The notes under the pieces: generated by a model
What the model saw: only the letters and a program-made list of their open reading frames with translations
What the model was told of the DNA's origin: nothing
The model's database searches: none
Translations under genes and position numbers: made by a program
In this document: positions 15,768 through 24,624 of the stretch, piece by piece
How the letters are laid out: each line of letters opens with the position of its first letter
Position numbering within the stretch: the first letter of the stretch is position 1
Assembly: GCF_039566955.1 (NCBI RefSeq)
Contig: NZ_CP154796.1
Span: 3,038,001 to 3,102,000 of the forward strand
Source: Micromonospora sp. DSM 45708
GTDB lineage: Bacteria > Actinomycetota > Actinomycetes > Mycobacteriales > Micromonosporaceae
Length of the DNA stretch: 64,000 nt
Direction of reading: 5' to 3'

Positions 15768-16910
15768 TTAGCCCCTGGCGAGGGCACGCGAGATGACCAG
15801 CCGCTGGATCTGGTTGGTGCCCTCGACGATCTGGAGCACCTTCGCCTCGCGCATGTACCGCTCGACCGGGTGGTCGGCGACGTAGCCGGCGCCGCCGAGC
15901 ACCTGCACCGCGTCGGTGGTCACCCGCATCGCCAGGTCGGTGGCGAACAGCTTCGCCTTCGCCGCCTCGATCGAGTACGGCCGGCCCGCGTCGCGCAGCC
16001 GCGCGGCGGCCAGCAGCAGCGCGCGGGCCGCGGAGATGCCGGTGGCGTGGTCGGCGAGCATGAAGCCGAGCCCCTGGAAGTCGACGATGGCGCGGCCGAA
16101 CTGCTGCCGCTGGCGCGCGTAGTCGACCGCGTAGTCCAGCGCGGCCTGTGCCAGGCCGACCGCGCAGGCGGCGATGCCGAGACGGCCGGAGTCCAGCGCC
16201 GACATGGCGATGGTGAAACCGGCGCCCTCGCCGCCGATCAGCCGCTCGGCCGGCACCCGGGCGTCGTCGAACGCGATCTGCGCGACCGGGGAGGCGTGCA
16301 GGCCCATGGTGCGCTCGGCGGCCTGCGGTGCGATGCCGGGCGTGGCCCGGTCGGCCAGCAGGCAGGAGATGCCCTTCGGGCCGGGCCCGCCGGTGCGACA
16401 GAAGACGTTGTAGAAGTCGGCGACGCGGGCATGGGTGATCCACGCCTTGGTGCCGGTCACCACGTACGCGTCGCCGTCGCGGACCGCCCGGGTGGTCAGC
16501 GCCGCCGCGTCCGACCCGCCCTGCGGCTCGGAGAGGCAGTACGCCCCGAGCAGCTCCCCGCCGATCATGTCGGGCAGCAGCTTGCGCTGCTCGTCGGTGC
16601 CGAACTGGGCCAACGGGTAGCAGGACAGCGTGTGCACGCTGACCGCCTCGGCCACGGCCAGCCACCGGCTGGCGAGGATCTCCAGCACCTGGAGGTAGAC
16701 CTCGTACGGCTGGGCGGCGCCGCCGTGCTCCTCGGCGTACGGCAGACCGAGCAGGCCGGCGCGGCCCAGTGTGCGCAGCACGTCGCGGGGGAACTCGGCG
16801 CGCTCCTCGAAGCCGGCGGCCTTCGGCGCCAACTCCCGGTCGGCGAGCTCGGTGGCGAGCTCCAGCAGGTCGTGGGCCTCGTCGGTGGGCAGGATCCGGT
16901 CGACGTTCAT
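15768..16910 (-). CDS. acyl-CoA dehydrogenase
   Basis: This FAD-dependent enzyme of 380 residues introduces an alpha-beta double bond into an acyl-CoA and passes electrons to ETF. Family motifs are clear: GAYCLSEPQGGSDAAALTT, GTKAWITHARVADFYNVF, and near the C-terminus VLGGAGYVADHPVERYMREAKVLQIVEGTNQIQ, which holds the catalytic Glu position (IVEGT) of short-chain and butyryl-CoA dehydrogenases. With crotonyl/butyryl-type intermediates produced by the nearby lysine pathway, a short-chain substrate is possible but unproven. ATG 16910; a small inverted repeat lies about 65 nt upstream. Confidence 0.92.
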   Translation of the reverse strand: MNVDRILPTDEAHDLLELATELADRELAPKAAGFEERAEFPRDVLRTLGRAGLLGLPYAEEHGGAAQPYEVYLQVLEILASRWLAVAEAVSVHTLSCYPLAQFGTDEQRKLLPDMIGGELLGAYCLSEPQGGSDAAALTTRAVRDGDAYVVTGTKAWITHARVADFYNVFCRTGGPGPKGISCLLADRATPGIAPQAAERTMGLHASPVAQIAFDDARVPAERLIGGEGAGFTIAMSALDSGRLGIAACAVGLAQAALDYAVDYARQRQQFGRAIVDFQGLGFMLADHATGISAARALLLAAARLRDAGRPYSIEAAKAKLFATDLAMRVTTDAVQVLGGAGYVADHPVERYMREAKVLQIVEGTNQIQRLVISRALARG

Positions 16911-17119: not shown

Positions 17120-17629
17120 ATGACGGAGCCGACGGACGCCACACGGCGACGACGGAGCGTGCTGCGGGTCGCACCCCCGGCGCGGGCCCGCAAGCTGGCC
17201 AAGGTGCCCTTCGTGGAGCTGGCCGACGGCCGGTTGCAGGGAGTGGTGTCCAGCGGGTCCGACGTGGAGCGGGTCTACGTCTCCTCGGTGACCGCCGGCA
17301 GCCACGCGGTCAACTGCAGCACCAACAACAACCGCCCCTGCGGCGGCCTGCGCGGCAGCCTGCTCTGCAAGCACCTGCACGCGCTGGCCGACGAGGCCGT
17401 GCTCCAGTACGGCGTCGAACAGGTCGCCCGTTACCTGCGTATCGACCCCGGCGACGGCGTCGACAGCGGTGCCGCGCTGCTGGCCCGCACCGACGCGCGG
17501 CACGAGCCCGGGCCGGCGGCGGTGGTGTTCAGCCGCTTCCTGCGCCACCTGGCCTACCTGGAGGTCCCGCCGAGCACCGCGCCGGTGCCCGAGCTGCACT
17601 GGTTCCCGGCCACCGCGGCGGTGCGCTGA
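17120..17629 (+). CDS. SWIM-like zinc-finger protein, first gene of a yeh-like VWA/MoxR operon
   Basis: The 169-residue protein has a basic N-terminus, a short beta-rich domain, and a cysteine/histidine cluster: C66, C74, C83 and H85 (NCSTNNNRPC ... LCKH). It resembles a SWIM zinc finger (CxC...CxH) with wider spacing between the first two cysteines. SWIM domains bind DNA or protein. Start ATG 17120 follows GGGGAGG. Its stop overlaps the next start (TGATG). In E. coli the analogous cluster encodes the SWIM protein YehQ; this gene plus the next may together correspond to it. Function unknown. Confidence 0.7.
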   Translation: MTEPTDATRRRRSVLRVAPPARARKLAKVPFVELADGRLQGVVSSGSDVERVYVSSVTAGSHAVNCSTNNNRPCGGLRGSLLCKHLHALADEAVLQYGVEQVARYLRIDPGDGVDSGAALLARTDARHEPGPAAVVFSRFLRHLAYLEVPPSTAPVPELHWFPATAAVR

Positions 17630-19035
17630 TGCTCGCCGCGCAGCTCACCCAGCTCGACGACGACGCACCCGCCGGGCTGGCCGAGGCGCTCGCCGTCGTC
17701 GACGCCGTCGACGACTCGCTCACCCGCGGCCTGGCCCGGCTGAGCGAGCCGGACGCCGCCGCCTGGACGGCGCTGGCCACCGCTGTCGACGGCACCCCGC
17801 TGGCCGAGCGCACCGCCGAGGCGGTGCGCGCCGCGACAACCGGCGCGCTCACCGAGGAGCACCTGGCCGTCCTCGTCGGCGCCCGCGCCGCGCTGCTCGG
17901 CGCCGTCCACGACGCGCTGCTGGACCGGCTCGACACGGCGCTGCACCGGTCCCGCGGCCCGTGGCTCGCCGCGCCGTCGGACGCCGCGCCCGCGCCGGGC
18001 GTCACCCCCGCCCTGGCCGGGGCCCGCGCCTGGCTGCACGAGCTGACGCTCGCCGGCTGGCAGGGCGCCGACCACGAACTGCTCTCCGGCGCCGCCGGGC
18101 CGGTCGAGGCCGCGCTCGCCGAGCCGGCCCAGCGCCGCCTCGCGGTGCTGCTCGACGGGCTCGCCGCCGAGCTGCGCGCCGGCCTGCCGGTGACCGCCGC
18201 GACGCCGGCACCCGCCCGCCGGTGGGCCGACCTGTGGGCCCGGGCCGTGCTGCTCGCCGCCGGCGCCACCACCGAGACCGCCCCGGCGGAGACGGTGTCC
18301 GGCCGGCTGCTGCCGCTCGGCGTCGACGTGCACGAGCACGACACCGCGTTCCAGGCGCAGCTGCACGCCCTGCTCGAACCGGCCGGCGGCGGTCCGGGCC
18401 GGCTGGTCCGGGTCACCGTCGTCGCGGCCAAGGTCGCCACCATCGTCGGCCCGGCCGGCTGGCGGCTGCTGGAGGCGTACCCGGTGCTGCTCAAGGCCCT
18501 CGCCGAGCGGCGGGCCGTGACCGTCACCGACCTGCCCGCGCACGGCGCCGACCTGCACTGGGTCGAGGAGCGCGCCGTGCTCGGCGACCCCGCCGACCCG
18601 TTCGCCACCGCCCGGGTGCTGCTCGCCGGCGCGACCGCGTCGGCCACCCCGCCGCTGCAACGCCATCCCGCCGCGCTCGCCGAACCGGTCCTGGTCGAGG
18701 GCCGCGTCGTCCGCGACGACGACGGTGAGCCGGTGGTCGCGCTCGACGGCCGGACGATCCCGCTGGCCGTCGACCGGCTGCCCGCCGCCGGGCCGCTCAC
18801 CCCGGCACTGGTCGGCGCCGCCACCGCGTGCCTCGGCCTGCTCCGCTGGGACGACGGCCGCTGGCTGCTGCAACCGCTCGCCGTGCGGGCCACCGTCAAA
18901 CGGCAGACCGTCGAGGCGCACAACGGCGACTGGGCGTGCGGCATCACCGACCCGAAGGCGGCCAAGGCCGAGGCGCGCGCCGGCGACGCGGTGGCCGTGC
19001 TGCGCGAACGCGCCGGAAGGTTGCTGCGCCGATGA
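17629..19035 (+). CDS. DUF5691-like protein of the yeh-like operon
   Basis: This 468-residue protein has no recognised catalytic motif. It is almost entirely Ala/Leu/Arg-rich helical repeats, with a more beta-like C-terminal third that ends in a conserved-looking NGDWACGITDPKAAKAE segment. In actinobacteria a DUF5691 protein commonly sits in this position, between the SWIM protein and the VWA protein; my assignment rests on that order, length and helical character. It begins within the stop codon of the SWIM gene and overlaps the VWA gene by 4 nt, so it is translationally coupled on both sides. It may act as a scaffold. Confidence 0.6.
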   Translation: MLAAQLTQLDDDAPAGLAEALAVVDAVDDSLTRGLARLSEPDAAAWTALATAVDGTPLAERTAEAVRAATTGALTEEHLAVLVGARAALLGAVHDALLDRLDTALHRSRGPWLAAPSDAAPAPGVTPALAGARAWLHELTLAGWQGADHELLSGAAGPVEAALAEPAQRRLAVLLDGLAAELRAGLPVTAATPAPARRWADLWARAVLLAAGATTETAPAETVSGRLLPLGVDVHEHDTAFQAQLHALLEPAGGGPGRLVRVTVVAAKVATIVGPAGWRLLEAYPVLLKALAERRAVTVTDLPAHGADLHWVEERAVLGDPADPFATARVLLAGATASATPPLQRHPAALAEPVLVEGRVVRDDDGEPVVALDGRTIPLAVDRLPAAGPLTPALVGAATACLGLLRWDDGRWLLQPLAVRATVKRQTVEAHNGDWACGITDPKAAKAEARAGDAVAVLRERAGRLLRR

Positions 19036-20351
19036 CCGCCGACCGCGACCACGCCAACCGCCGCCAGGTGCTCTACTGGCGGCTGCTCGCCCGCCTGTTC
19101 CACCCCGACGAGCAGCCGGCGCTGGAATCCGCCAGCGTCGCCGTCGTCGACGACCTCGGCCTGCCCACCGCGCTGCTGGACCCGGCCGTCTCCGTCGACA
19201 CCGTCGTCCAGCGCTTCCCGGCACTCGCCGACGAGCTGCGCGGTCTGCTCACCCCCGACCCCGACGCCCCGGCCGGCCCGTTCCACCCCACCGAGATCGA
19301 GGTACGCCGGGCCGCGCTGGCGTCGAAGCTGCTGCTCAACGTGTTCGCCACCGGCGCCGGCGAGGTCAGCGCCGGGCAACTGGCCCGCTGGCAGGCCGAT
19401 GCCGGCTGGTTCGAGCAGGCGTGCGGCGCCGCCCCCGGCGAGCTGCGCCGGGACGGGACCGGTCTCGGCGCCACACTCGCCGGCCTGGAGGGCGACCTGG
19501 TCCGCCGGATGCGCCTGCGGGAGGTGCTCGCCGACCCGGTGCTGGCCGCCCGGCTCACCCCGAGCATGTCCCTGATCGAGCAGCTCCTGCGCGACAAGTC
19601 GAACCTGTCCGGGGTGGCGCTGGCCAACGCCAAGTCACTGATCCGCCGCTACGTCGACCAGGTCGCCGAGGTGCTGCGCACCCAGGTCGCGCAGGCCACC
19701 GTCGGCGCGGTCGACCGGTCGGTGCCGCCCAAGCGGGTCTTCCGCAACCTCGACCTCGACCGCACGATCTGGCAGAACCTCACCAACTGGAGCCCCGACG
19801 ACGAACGCCTCTACGTCGACCGGCTCTACTACCGGCAGACCGCGCGGCGCACCACGCCGTCGCGGCTCATCGTGGTCGTCGACCAGTCCGGCTCGATGGT
19901 CGACTCGATGGTCAACTGCACCATCCTCGCCTCCATCTTCGCCGGGCTGCCCAAGGTCGACGTGCACCTCATCGCGTACGACACCCGGGCGCTGGACCTC
20001 ACCCCGTGGGTGCACGACCCGTTCGAGGTGCTGCTGCGCACCAACCTCGGCGGCGGCAACGACGGCCCGGTCGCCATGGCGCTGGCCCGCCCCAAGATCG
20101 TCGAGCCGCGCAACACGGTAATGGTCTGGATCTCCGACTTCTACGAGTTCGACCGCTCCCAGCCGCTGTTCGACGGCATCGAGGCCGTGCACCGCTCCGG
20201 GGTGAAGTTCATCCCGGTCGGCTCCGTCAACAGCTCCGGCCACCAGAGCGTCAACCCCTGGTTCCGGCAGCGCCTCAAGGACCTGGGCACCCCCGTCATC
20301 TCCGGCCACATCCGCAAGCTCGTCGTCGAGCTGAAGAACTTCCTCACCTAG
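19032..20351 (+). CDS. VWA-domain protein (YehP-like)
   Basis: The 439-residue protein has an N-terminal helical region (1-260) and a C-terminal von Willebrand A domain. Its metal-ion adhesion site is DQSGSM (D284, S286, S288), followed by the TNLGGGNDG and WISDFYEFD loops that complete the site. In MoxR-VWA pairs the VWA protein presents metal-bound clients to the AAA+ ATPase; E. coli YehP is the closest analogue by architecture and neighbours. ATG 19032 overlaps the upstream stop (ATGA) and the ATPase gene starts 13 nt after its stop. It is cytoplasmic: no signal peptide is visible. Confidence 0.88.
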   Translation: MTADRDHANRRQVLYWRLLARLFHPDEQPALESASVAVVDDLGLPTALLDPAVSVDTVVQRFPALADELRGLLTPDPDAPAGPFHPTEIEVRRAALASKLLLNVFATGAGEVSAGQLARWQADAGWFEQACGAAPGELRRDGTGLGATLAGLEGDLVRRMRLREVLADPVLAARLTPSMSLIEQLLRDKSNLSGVALANAKSLIRRYVDQVAEVLRTQVAQATVGAVDRSVPPKRVFRNLDLDRTIWQNLTNWSPDDERLYVDRLYYRQTARRTTPSRLIVVVDQSGSMVDSMVNCTILASIFAGLPKVDVHLIAYDTRALDLTPWVHDPFEVLLRTNLGGGNDGPVAMALARPKIVEPRNTVMVWISDFYEFDRSQPLFDGIEAVHRSGVKFIPVGSVNSSGHQSVNPWFRQRLKDLGTPVISGHIRKLVVELKNFLT

Positions 20352-20364
20352 GAGAGCACCCCTG

Positions 20365-21477
20365 ATGTCCGACATGCTCCGCGCCCCCGCCGAGGTCACC
20401 TACGCCGACGAGCTGGCCTACCTCGAGTCGGTCGACACCGGGCCGAAGCCGTTCTCCTGGCGCCTGAGCCCCCGCATGGTCCGGCTGTTCGTGCTCGGCT
20501 CCGAACGCGCCGACGGCCTCGACCGGGAGATCCCGCAGAAATGGTTCGGCGACCGCAGCTTCGTCGAACGCAGCATCGTCACGCTCGCCTCCGACCGGGG
20601 CCTGCTGCTCATCGGCGACCCCGGCACCGGCAAGAGCTGGCTCGCCGAGCTGCTCTCGGCCGCGATCTGCGGCAACTCCACGCTCGTCGTGCAGGGCACC
20701 GCCGGCACCACCGAGGACCACATCAAGTACTCGTGGAACGTCTCCATGGTCATCGCGCGTGGCCAGTCCCGCGAGTCGATGATCCCCTCGCCGATCATGA
20801 CCGCGATGGAACGCGGCGTCATCGGCCGCTTCGAGGAGCTGACCCGCTCCACCAGCGACGTGCAGGACGCGCTCATCTCGATCCTGTCCGAGAAGTACGT
20901 CGCCATCCCCGAGCTGGACCAGGACAACATCGTCTTCGCCCAGCCCGGCTTCTCGATCATCGCCACCGCGAACAGCCGCGACCGGGGCGTCAACGACCTC
21001 TCCTCCGCGCTCAAGCGCCGGTTCAACTTCGTCCGCATCCCGGTGGTCACCAACAAGCGCAGCGAGGCCGAGATCGTCCGCTTCCGCACCGAGGAGCTAC
21101 TGCGCCGGCACCGCATCGAGCTGGAGGTCCCGCCCACCCTGCTCGACATCCTGCTGCAGAGCTTCGCCGACCTGCGCGCCGCCGCGTCCGCCGCCACCAG
21201 CGACGACGAGAAGCTGGAGTCGGCGCTGTCCACCGCCGAGCAGATCGGCGTGCTGGAGGACGCCGTCCTGCACAGCCAGTTCTTCGGCGACCGCACCCTG
21301 CGCGCCGGGACGCTCGCCGGGTCGCTGGTCGGCTCGCTGGCCCGACGCAGCCCGGAGGACCTGGCCATCCTCAACAAGTACCTGCACGGCGTCGTCGAGC
21401 CCCGGGCCAAGGCCGACGGCGGCGGCTGGGACGACTTCCTCGACGGCGGTCGCCAGGCGATCGCGTCGCTGTCATGA
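20365..21477 (+). CDS. MoxR-type AAA+ ATPase (YehL-like)
   Basis: The 370-residue AAA+ ATPase has Walker A GDPGTGKS (residues 84-91). A Walker-B-like strand, GVIGRFEEL, has Glu-Glu in place of Asp-Glu. FSIIATANSRD gives the sensor-1 Asn, and SSALKRRF the arginine-finger region. MoxR ATPases act as chaperones that remodel or load metals into partners through VWA proteins, here the upstream gene. Start ATG 20365 follows GGAGAG. It overlaps the next gene by 4 nt. E. coli YehL is the likely counterpart. Confidence 0.9.
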   Translation: MSDMLRAPAEVTYADELAYLESVDTGPKPFSWRLSPRMVRLFVLGSERADGLDREIPQKWFGDRSFVERSIVTLASDRGLLLIGDPGTGKSWLAELLSAAICGNSTLVVQGTAGTTEDHIKYSWNVSMVIARGQSRESMIPSPIMTAMERGVIGRFEELTRSTSDVQDALISILSEKYVAIPELDQDNIVFAQPGFSIIATANSRDRGVNDLSSALKRRFNFVRIPVVTNKRSEAEIVRFRTEELLRRHRIELEVPPTLLDILLQSFADLRAAASAATSDDEKLESALSTAEQIGVLEDAVLHSQFFGDRTLRAGTLAGSLVGSLARRSPEDLAILNKYLHGVVEPRAKADGGGWDDFLDGGRQAIASLS

Positions 21478-24305
21478 CCGCACCCGCCCCGACCGGCCTC
21501 TTCGGCGCGCTGCGCGAGCAGCTCACCGACGCCGCCGCCGCGTTCGCCGACTCCCCCGACGCGCTCGCCGGGATCCTCGCCGGCATGGTCGACGACGTCG
21601 ACCGCGCACTCGGCGAACGGCTGGAGATCTTTCCGGTCTGCCACCACTCCCCCGCGTCCGCGCTGGCCATGGCCCGGCGACTACGCGCCCACCCACCCAA
21701 GGTCATCTACCTCGAACTCTGCGAGGACCTGCGCCCCCTCCTCGACGAGCTGCGCAACTGCCGCCTCCCCGTGGCCGTGCAGGCGTTCGCCACCGAACTC
21801 GACGGCTTCCCCGCCGAGTGGAGCCCGCTGAGCGTCATCGCCCCGATCACCGAGGCCTCCGCGGAATACCAGGCCATCGCGTACGCGCTGGACACGCCGG
21901 GCGTGGAGCTGGTGCTGGTGGACCGCTCCACCGACCACGTCTTCCAGTGGACGCCGCGCGACGACCAGCCGGCCGGCCCCGACCCGGCCCCGACCGCCGA
22001 CGAGGACGCGGCGCTGCACGGCGACGCGGTCGGCGTGGAGATCGGCGACCTGCGTCCCCGCTTCGCCGAACTGGAAGCCCACCTGCTGCACCACGGCAAG
22101 GTCCGGCACTGGTCGGAGTGGTGGGACCAGTACGTCGAACGTCCCCTCGCCGACGCCGACCACGACACCTACCGGCAGGTCATGGTGCTGATCGGCAGCC
22201 TGTTCCGGCGGCTGCGCCCCACCCGGTCGGCCCGCGACGACCGCGACGAGGACCGGGAACGCCACATGTGGACGCGGATGCGCCAACACCTCGCCGCGTC
22301 CGGCGCCGACCCGGCCGACTGCCTCTACGTCTGCGGCGCGTTCCACGCCGCCAGCCGCGTCGAACAGTTCGGCCTCGACTCCACCGCCCCGGACTTCCCG
22401 ATCAGCCCCCGCACCGGCACCCGCTGGCGCTACGGTCTCATCCCGTCCAGCCACTCCGCCATCGAGGCCCAGTTCGGCCTCGCCCCCGGCACCGTCTCCA
22501 TCGCGGCGGCGAACTGGGCCGCCGCGATCGGCCGCAGCCGGCTCACGCCGTACCGGCTGGCCGGGCAGCAGACCGGGAAGAAGGGCCGCCGCACCCGGGC
22601 GACCCCGACCGCCGCCCCGCCCGAGGTGGTCGCCGACCGGCTCAGCGGCTTCCTGGCCGCGCCACCGGCGCTCGACGGGCTGGACGAGGCGGAACTGCGC
22701 GGCTGGTGCGTCGACATCGTCCGACTCGCCCGCCGCAACGGCTACCTCGCCAGCACCGCCGACGCGATCGCCGTGTTCGAGACCTCGATCCTGCTGGCCA
22801 ACCTGCGCAACCGGGCCAAGCCGACCCCCTACGACTTCGCCGACGCCGCGGTCACCTGCATCGAGAAGGACGTGGTGCCGGGCCGACGCGACGTCCGCCG
22901 GCTCTGCGAGATCCTGCTCGGCGGCGACCGCGTCGGCCAGGTCGGATACGACTCGCTGCCGCCGCTGGCCCGCGACGTGCTCGACCGGCTCCGCCCGCTC
23001 GGGCTCGACCTGGAGCGGCGCACCGTGCAGCGGGCACTGCTCGACCTGCGCGCCGACCCGGCGCTGGAGCCCTGCTCCGACCTGCTCTGGATGCTGCGCC
23101 ACCTGCTGCCCGCCGACGCGGTCCGCCCGATCATGGGCGAGCGCCGCCTCGGGCACCGCTCCACTCAGGAGAGCTGGGACCTCGCCCTCGGCCGCAACCA
23201 ACGCGCCCTCATCGAGCTGGGCTACGAGGGCGTCACGGTCGAGCAGGTGCTGGAGCAACGGCTGCGGCGCGCGGTCCGCGGCCCGGACGCCACCGCCGCC
23301 CGCGCGCTCGCCGCGGTCGAGGACGCCATCCGCCTGCTCGACAGTCCCCGGCTGGTCGACGAGCTCGGCACGCGGGCCGTCGAGCTGCTCGCGGCCGAAC
23401 GCACCGTCGACGACGCGCCGGAGGTGCTGCGCCGCATCCGGCGGCTGCTCGCCCACCACCGCACCACCGCGCCGACGCTGCCGGCCTGGTGTCAGGCGTT
23501 CGTCACCACCGGGTACGCCCACTACTGCACGCTGCTGCCCACCGCGTTCGTCGACGAGGCCACCGGCGTCCGTCAGGTCGGCGCCATGCTCGGCTTCCTG
23601 TTCCACATGGAGAGCCTCGCGCTGTCGCTGGGCTGCGACCGGTCGCAGCTCGAACTGGCCGTCGCCCAGGCCCACCCCGAGGCGCCGGCCAAGCTGGCGC
23701 TGCTCTGGGCCGCCCGTCACCAGCTCGGCCTGCTGCCGCTGGCCCGGCTCCGTGAGCACTGCGCCGAGTTGCTGGGCAACCCGCTGGTGGTGCCGGCGTT
23801 CCCGCAGTACCTGTCCGGGTTCGTGCACGCGCTCGACCCGGTGCCGCGGCTGGCGCCGTTCGTGGTGGAGACCATGTCGGCCGCGTTCGCCGGGCTGCCG
23901 GACCCGGTGCTGTTGCCGTGGCTGCCCACCCTGATCACCACGCTGCGGGAGCACGGCCCGGAACTGGTGCCGCTGCTGGTCCGGGAGGCGGAACGCACCT
24001 TCCCCGGCACCCTGCCCGAGCTGGACGCCTGGACGCCGCCGTGGGCCGCCGCGCCAGCGCCGTCGACGTCCGGGCCGGCGGTGACGCCCACCGGGCCGGT
24101 GCACGGCCTACTGACCGCGTATCCGGTGGCCGTCGACGCGGTGGCGGCGCTGCTCGGCTGCGACGGGTCGTGGCGCCCGCCCGTCGACGACGCCCCACCG
24201 ACGTGCGGGGCGGCCGGCACGCTGGTGGCCGCCCATCCGGCGAGCGCCCGCGCGGTGGCGTCCCTGCTGGCGCGACCGGATCGGGCCGGGCTCAGTGCGG
24301 GGTGA
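21474..24305 (+). CDS. DUF5682-like large protein (YehM-like) with a TraB/ChaN-like N-terminal domain
   Basis: The 943-residue protein is the largest component of the operon. The N-terminal 320 residues hold three motifs spaced like those of the TraB/ChaN/EreA esterase-peptidase superfamily: CHHSPAS (H57, H58), VIYLELCEDL (E81) and YVCGAFHAAS (G288-H291, a GxxH motif). The rest (about 380-900) is helical repeats without known motifs, ending in a Pro-rich linker and a short Ala-rich tail. It starts inside the ATPase stop codon (ATGA) and its 3' end overlaps the convergent cupin gene by 14 nt. The family match to DUF5682/YehM is from memory of gene order; enzymatic activity is inference. Confidence 0.75.
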   Translation: MTAPAPTGLFGALREQLTDAAAAFADSPDALAGILAGMVDDVDRALGERLEIFPVCHHSPASALAMARRLRAHPPKVIYLELCEDLRPLLDELRNCRLPVAVQAFATELDGFPAEWSPLSVIAPITEASAEYQAIAYALDTPGVELVLVDRSTDHVFQWTPRDDQPAGPDPAPTADEDAALHGDAVGVEIGDLRPRFAELEAHLLHHGKVRHWSEWWDQYVERPLADADHDTYRQVMVLIGSLFRRLRPTRSARDDRDEDRERHMWTRMRQHLAASGADPADCLYVCGAFHAASRVEQFGLDSTAPDFPISPRTGTRWRYGLIPSSHSAIEAQFGLAPGTVSIAAANWAAAIGRSRLTPYRLAGQQTGKKGRRTRATPTAAPPEVVADRLSGFLAAPPALDGLDEAELRGWCVDIVRLARRNGYLASTADAIAVFETSILLANLRNRAKPTPYDFADAAVTCIEKDVVPGRRDVRRLCEILLGGDRVGQVGYDSLPPLARDVLDRLRPLGLDLERRTVQRALLDLRADPALEPCSDLLWMLRHLLPADAVRPIMGERRLGHRSTQESWDLALGRNQRALIELGYEGVTVEQVLEQRLRRAVRGPDATAARALAAVEDAIRLLDSPRLVDELGTRAVELLAAERTVDDAPEVLRRIRRLLAHHRTTAPTLPAWCQAFVTTGYAHYCTLLPTAFVDEATGVRQVGAMLGFLFHMESLALSLGCDRSQLELAVAQAHPEAPAKLALLWAARHQLGLLPLARLREHCAELLGNPLVVPAFPQYLSGFVHALDPVPRLAPFVVETMSAAFAGLPDPVLLPWLPTLITTLREHGPELVPLLVREAERTFPGTLPELDAWTPPWAAAPAPSTSGPAVTPTGPVHGLLTAYPVAVDAVAALLGCDGSWRPPVDDAPPTCGAAGTLVAAHPASARAVASLLARPDRAGLSAG

Positions 24306-24624
24306 CCAGGGGCCGGCGGTCGTCGACGAAGTACGAGGAGAGCATCCGCGTCTCGACGCTCCCGACGTTGCGGGCGTTGTGCACCACACCCGGCGGAATC
24401 AGGAAGGGTTGGCCGGCACCGACGCGGAGAGCGGGGCGGTCGTCGAACTCCATGACGATGTCGCCCTGGATCAGGTAGCCGACCTCCTCGCCGGGATGGC
24501 TGTGCCGCCCCGACTCCCGGCCGACCGGGATCTGGAACAGGGTCTGCACGATCAGCCGGCCCGGCACCTCGGAGTGGGCGCGCTGCAACTCGGCGCGGGT
24601 GACGCCTTCGGTCGAAGGTCCCAT
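24292..24624 (-). CDS. small cupin-domain protein
   Basis: The 110-residue single-domain cupin has both conserved motifs. Motif 1 is GRHSHPGEEVGYLIQGDIVMEF (two His and the Glu), motif 2 is PFLIPPGVVHNARN (last metal His). Such proteins bind a metal and act as dioxygenases, isomerases or sensors; no specific reaction can be read. ATG 24624 is used. It is convergent with, and overlaps, the end of the large yeh-like gene by 14 nt, so it is not part of that operon. Confidence 0.85.
   Translation of the reverse strand: MGPSTEGVTRAELQRAHSEVPGRLIVQTLFQIPVGRESGRHSHPGEEVGYLIQGDIVMEFDDRPALRVGAGQPFLIPPGVVHNARNVGSVETRMLSSYFVDDRRPLVTPH

Follow-up and report, generated by a model that had tools for sequence, protein, structure and literature searches.

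A co-inherited five-gene YehL-type MoxR-VWA cassette in Micromonospora sp. DSM 45708

Comparison of related loci showed that five co-directional genes of Micromonospora sp. DSM 45708 are inherited together and move as one block. The cassette lies on the + strand at positions 17120-24305 of a 64,000-nucleotide stretch of contig NZ_CP154796.1 (positions 3,038,001 to 3,102,000), referred to here as the window, and encodes a SWIM-like protein (gene 1), a helical protein with an OB-like part (gene 2), a VWA protein (gene 3), a MoxR ATPase (gene 4) and a DUF5682 protein (gene 5). It is an actinobacterial type in its own right within a widespread and little-studied MoxR-VWA family, undescribed in the literature searched, which left most subscription papers outside, and gene 2 is the unexpected subunit of this type. 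The reading that we tentatively prefer, at somewhat less than an even chance, is that the MoxR-VWA motor would remodel or activate the DUF5682 protein while the SWIM-like/OB-like pair would recognise nucleic acid. The features of the cassette are as follows.

17120..17629, +, gene 1, SWIM-like small Cys/His protein, 169 aa, with invariant C66/C74/C83/H85
17315..17374, +, C-x7-C-x8-C-x-H cluster of gene 1 (C66, C74, C83, H85), invariant in 45/45
17629..19035, +, gene 2, helical and OB-like protein, 468 aa, holding the DUF5691 place of canonical loci
18271..18921, +, possible tandem OB-like part of gene 2, residues 215-431
19032..20351, +, gene 3, CoxE/YehP-like VWA protein, 439 aa, with intact metal-ion-dependent adhesion site (MIDAS) DxSGS
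20365..21477, +, gene 4, MoxR AAA+ ATPase of the YehL type, 370 aa
21474..24305, +, gene 5, divergent DUF5682 (YehM family) protein, 943 aa
21615..22538, +, alpha/beta domain at the N terminus of gene 5, carrying a putative active site (H57, E81, D150, R261, E262, G288, H291)
23217..24023, +, C-terminal helix run of gene 5, alpha-solenoid-like by weak structural matches

Gene order, distribution and transfer

All five genes were found in the order of the window, using trimmed models, in 46 of 48 window-type loci (45 from genomes, two plasmid records and the window itself), and the remaining two (L131 and L144) lack an end gene where the contig stops. The 46 loci are spread over separate genomes or plasmids, and the two exceptions are truncations at the end of a contig, so the conserved order is more than chance. 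An earlier note, made from the letters of the window alone, had taken the five genes, all running in one direction, for one machine and had proposed a neighbourhood count across genomes; the five open reading frames (ORFs) are indeed all on the + strand, and the count found them together as expected of a co-conserved machine. The junctions were read from the sequence as TGATG (1-nt overlap), ATGA (4-nt overlap), a 13-nt gap and ATGA (4-nt overlap), as the note had given them, except that its "four of the five junctions" is a miscount, five genes having four. Third-position GC is 0.95-0.98 in each cassette ORF.

Both flanking genes, for an acyl-CoA dehydrogenase upstream (15768-16910) and a cupin downstream (24292-24624), are oriented opposite to the cassette, which is therefore a bounded unit. 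Outside the five genes, no family of flanking ORFs (at least 120 aa, blastp E 1e-15) was common to more than 7 of the 48 loci. A fixed chromosomal neighbourhood was ruled out, since the interval that separates the acyl-CoA dehydrogenase gene from YccF varies in content. It holds the cassette in the window and in genomes G339 and G417, the cassette and a VMAP/NB-ARC cluster in G376, where YccF lies just beyond the stretch examined, and other genes without the cassette in G421 and G410. Within the genus, the interval at window:15768-25109 is thus variable, with the cassette, the cassette and other genes, or other genes only.

Among the matches listed, ATPase identities to gene 4 split into at least 85% (window type) and at most 50% (other YehL types), with none between. 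The matches listed place the window type in 77 of the 150 genomes sampled from the window's family, in 22 of 296 from the class and in 5 of 296 from the phylum, the three genome samples overlapping. A cassette tree was built by a quick method from 47 rows, with the two plasmids labelled f4 by their tree position. The window's family (f1, Micromonosporaceae as inferred from the named homologues of gene 5) needs 6 label changes on this tree, at least 3 of them forced by well-supported branches. Inheritance looks mostly vertical, as family labels are strongly clustered on the tree. For all five genes of locus L124, which belongs to family f1, the nearest relative is in f4 or is one of two Streptomyces plasmids, and the cassette therefore moved as one block.

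The five proteins

Only genes 3 and 4 are recognised by Pfam, the other three having no match at E <= 1. The translation of gene 4 contains the Walker A motif GDPGTGKS and matches AAA_5 (2.5e-36) as well as E. coli YehL (3e-80 by phmmer, E 7e-98 by hhalign), and by these comparisons it is a YehL-type MoxR ATPase. Gene 3 matches VWA_CoxE (PF05762, 2.7e-29) and, in a single-sequence comparison, E. coli YehP (9e-43), and DxSGS is intact in all 48 window-type VWA proteins, the window's included, which identifies it by homology as a CoxE/YehP-like VWA protein with an intact MIDAS. Both the Walker A ATPase and the VWA metal site of the earlier note were recovered in these searches. The MIDAS threonine position is occupied by Asn in 24 and by Thr in 24 of the 48 window-type proteins, and by Thr in 92 of 94 proteins of other types.

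Gene 5 aligned with canonical DUF5682 proteins over 671 columns in profile-profile comparison (hhalign probability 99.9, E 5.2e-34; six control families gave E 0.006 to 0.45), and many of its 120 listed homologues are named DUF5682, some with PF18934. Its closest named homologues among the matches listed are from Micromonospora. On this profile evidence gene 5 is a divergent member of the DUF5682, YehM family. At E up to 1, PF18934 matches 13 of 24 aligned gene 5 members (best 5e-36) and leaves the window's gene 5 and 10 of 23 aligned relatives without a match; the model undercalls this actinobacterial DUF5682 branch.

Residues H57, E81, D150, W217, E222, R261, E262, G288 and H291 are among those invariant over 61 aligned DUF5682 proteins (23 of the window type and 38 of other types). 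They include H57 of the HHSP motif and G288/H291 of the GAFH motif, both of which had been singled out earlier. The AlphaFold2 model (mean predicted local distance difference test score 79.9, predicted template modelling score 0.69) shows an alpha/beta domain at the N terminus, with H57, E81, D150 and H291 placed within strands or immediately behind them, and then a long helix run with weak structure matches, which we take to be to importin- and HEAT-type solenoids. The N-terminal part is read as a putative enzyme, most likely a metal-dependent hydrolase. The TIKI/TraB/ChaN/EreA metallo-hydrolases have two GX2H motifs and a Glu, and gene 5 is presumably comparable to them by motif, as it has GX2H-like motifs and an invariant Glu (H57, E81, G288-x-x-H291); it differs in that the window protein has PVCH, without the Gly, as its first motif. 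Comparison with an EreA profile of only three rows gave E 0.29, and the structural comparisons hardly sampled the N-terminal domain.

The Cys/His cluster noted earlier in gene 1 is strictly kept: C66, C74, C83 and H85, with family spacing C-x7-C-x(6-9)-C-x-H, are invariant in 45/45 aligned proteins (of 46; L125, short in its model match, was excluded). The SWIM zinc finger is defined as PF04434, CxCxnCxH, and 79 of 84 canonical SWIM proteins of other loci have C-x-C...C-x-H. None of the 45 gene 1 proteins matches the Pfam SWIM profile, and hhalign of the Cys region against SWIM gave E 0.027 and probability 1.8%, with E 0.012 for an unrelated control (SWIM-like versus DUF5682). By eye, the words around the cluster look alike in gene 1 and canonical SWIM proteins. 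From these comparisons the gene 1 protein is described as only SWIM-like.

Gene 2 had been called DUF5691-like, and this assignment was not supported: none of 46 members matches PF18944, hhalign gave E 0.2, and two canonical Streptomyces proteins used as positive control matched at 1.7e-174 and 6.3e-176. The profile placement of the proteins proposed earlier thus held for gene 5 in DUF5682 and failed for gene 2. The confident predicted model of gene 2 consists of helices and a beta-rich part weakly resembling tandem OB folds (weak Z), and the protein may be a nucleic-acid binder; this model makes nucleic-acid recognition by the complex somewhat more plausible. A SWIM-like::gene 2 fusion was found in 3 of the 48 window-type loci and a SWIM::DUF5691 fusion in 9 canonical ORFs (one of these, L010, annotated as two genes). 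Therefore, gene 2 relates to gene 1 as DUF5691 relates to SWIM, without detectable homology between the partners, which suggests either subunit exchange or divergence past detection.

The OB-like and SWIM-like subunits are also what would be expected of a DNA repair or replication-stress complex, in which this module binds single-stranded DNA, the ATPase remodels a repair intermediate and DUF5682 is structural. The S. atratus locus has a 1640-aa partner that carries the annotation 'DNA-binding protein', and the predicted solenoid-like part of DUF5682 would fit a structural role. However, the invariant His/Glu/Asp/His set suggests an enzyme, and flanking genes do not recur, hence neither do repair genes nearby; we regard this explanation as very unlikely.

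Other YehL-type loci and candidate functions

A census of other types covered 106 YehL-type anchors in 105 loci, on both strands within 9 kb. SWIM, DUF5691, DUF5682 and VWA were found together in 72, the same with DUF4132 in 4, and SWIM, DUF4132, DUF5682 and VWA in 12; the other 18 lacked at least one component, several of them on short contigs. Among genome-contig loci, taken as the best 80 of 587 and hence biased towards the type of the query, SWIM, DUF5691, DUF5682 and VWA are all present in 68. Streptomyces-type loci have SWIM-DUF5691 in divergent orientation to the remaining genes, and DUF5682 is fused to VWA in 8/8 loci of the DUF4132 type.

A second YehL-type locus, of the DUF4132 type, is present in the window's genome (L002:2112-14469; G000:C1:3935000-3954000) and encodes DUF4132, a 1585-aa protein without Pfam match, AAA, DUF5682 fused to VWA, and a SWIM-like protein. 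Genomes G161, G023 and G678 each have three YehL-type loci, of the window, DUF4132-DBP and DUF5691 types (L139/L151/L152, L143/L153/L154 and L147/L155/L156). The only match in the phage collection was an AAA-DUF5682-VWA set in L006 (MT835988.1), a 14.2-kb record labelled Bacteriophage sp. that is possibly bacterial DNA.

The E. coli K-12 locus consists of yehI (DUF4132), yehL, yehM, yehP and yehQ. Since DUF4132 is present as yehI and DUF5691, which was looked for at this locus, was not found there, E. coli yeh is a related set of a different type. The resemblance to yehQ-P-L-M proposed in the earlier note therefore stands as kinship to yehL (3e-80), yehP (9e-43) and yehM (by profile-profile comparison), and fails in that the E. 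coli set is of another type. The yehM gene was found in 5284 of 5426 E. coli genomes (5166 with at least 80% of its length) and is a core gene of the species.

According to the reading preferred here, the five proteins would form one ATP-driven remodelling machine, in which a MoxR hexamer and a VWA adaptor may work as in NorQ-NorD or RavA-ViaA. The client would be the co-encoded DUF5682 protein, which the motor would metallate or switch on and which is read as a putative alpha/beta enzyme, carrying a conserved His/Glu/Asp/His set and joined to an alpha-solenoid; DUF5682 is the likely client because of the NorQ-NorD precedent and the DUF5682::VWA fusions. The SWIM-like and OB-like proteins would be a recognition module bringing the complex to nucleic acid, probably single-stranded, with stress, damage to DNA or an invading nucleic acid as possible triggers.

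Alternatively, the cassette might encode a housekeeping metal-insertion or maturation chaperone, in which MoxR-VWA loads metal into DUF5682 as a cytosolic metalloenzyme of metabolism or stress, the SWIM-like protein and gene 2 are scaffolds, and foreign nucleic acid is not sensed. In NorQ-NorD, which inserts iron into a metalloenzyme, the AAA+ ring acts via its VWA partner on that enzyme, with a twisting step proposed for metal insertion (PMC13036017). The core status of yehM argues in the same direction, as does, weakly, its presence among the genes mutated in copper-exposed E. coli populations, although it is only one of many such genes (PMC12409786). The actinobacterial type is patchy, with about half of the family genomes among the matches listed, and has moved as a block, and gene 2 may bind nucleic acid as modelled, all of which argues against this explanation; we consider it somewhat unlikely.

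An anti-phage or other conflict system, with DUF5682 as toxic effector and the SWIM-like/OB-like proteins as sensor, as in MoxR-vWA ternary systems, would account for a self-contained block without conserved neighbours, for its patchy occurrence and horizontal transfer, and for the exchange of a partner subunit between types. In G376 (same genus) the cassette also adjoins a VMAP-C/EAD2 and NB-ARC cluster. However, VMAP-C lies beside the cassette in just 1 of 45 genomes, and in 20 of 45 anywhere in the genome; PADLOC gave only weak, generic AAA/VWA matches on the cassette; the E. coli relative is core; and the same five subunits occur throughout, without the changing effector domains described in PMC7159879. 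Such a system is quite unlikely. That the cassette is a VMAP system, or that VMAP regularly lies next to it, was rejected. VMAP-C had no match in the window's genome (G000), the five cassette proteins match no VMAP models, and no inactive STAND or FtsH partner was found in the cassette, where genes 1, 2 and 5 lack Pfam matches at the threshold given above. The G376 cluster, directly upstream of the cassette (L170:2691-12378), encodes a VMAP-C/VMAP-M0/EAD2 protein, an NB-ARC/TPR protein, a 632-aa protein without match and an alpha/beta-hydrolase-EAD2 protein.

A broader extension of the preferred reading, which we hold to be unlikely, is that of a modular ATP-gated nucleic-acid surveillance machine of several phyla, with a fixed core (MoxR, VWA, the DUF5682 putative metallo-hydrolase and a SWIM-type protein) and an exchangeable recognition subunit, here tandem-OB, which would sense single-stranded DNA or RNA and license the motor to activate the effector.

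As yehM belongs to the core genes of E. coli, K-12 can be used directly to look for a deletion phenotype. The census offers a defined gene set, putative catalytic residues and a possible nucleic-acid-binding subunit, and the gene fusions suggest which subunits touch, so that the role of YehL MoxR proteins becomes a testable question.

Elsewhere in the window, the ORF at window:48165-51272 encodes an AidB-type acyl-CoA dehydrogenase (residues 501-928) preceded by a 500-residue N-terminal stretch without Pfam match; its third-position GC is lower, at 0.81, and the start may be wrong.

Comparison with known systems

The MoxR ATPases fall into seven subfamilies, YehL among them (PMC3893208), and no function for YehL was found in the literature searched. 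The same search, with its limited access to subscription papers, did not find DUF5682, DUF5691 or their Pfam accessions, nor an OB fold, MoxR, von Willebrand and SWIM domain together. A yehQ deletion appears in the strain table of a butanol study (PMC6442406), and a CRISPR clustering study lists vWA-MoxR-VMAP associations and has SWIM among its abbreviations (PMC10910872).

The cassette resembles the MoxR-vWA-VMAP and related ternary conflict systems in combining MoxR, vWA and a third protein (PMC7159879), and differs from them in that VMAP-C has no match in the window's genome and bpMoxR falls far below cut-off; the terms SWIM and yehL are absent from the available text of that paper. With NorQ-NorD and RavA-ViaA it shares a MoxR AAA+ ATPase and a VWA protein acting on a client (PMC13036017, PMC3893208), whereas SWIM, OB-like and DUF5682 partners are not mentioned in the available parts of those papers.

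The E. coli yehI-yehL-yehM-yehP-yehQ set has homologous AAA and VWA proteins, YehM in the DUF5682 set and an annotated SWIM protein. It differs in having DUF4132 and no annotated OB-like protein, in its order (AAA-DUF5682-VWA-SWIM), in its long SWIM protein (614 aa) and in being core in the species. The canonical SWIM-DUF5691-AAA-DUF5682-VWA loci of Rhizobium, Deinococcus, Hymenobacter, Chloroflexi and Streptomyces share the core trio, and in them too a SWIM-type protein precedes a partner gene, with which it is fused in some cases; in these loci the partner is DUF5691, VWA is last rather than third, and the AAA protein is at most 50% identical to that of the window among the matches listed. 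Across the types, the core of ATPase, VWA, DUF5682 and SWIM-type protein is kept and the last partner seems to be exchanged, being OB-like here, DUF5691 in most other loci sampled and DUF4132 in the E. coli type.

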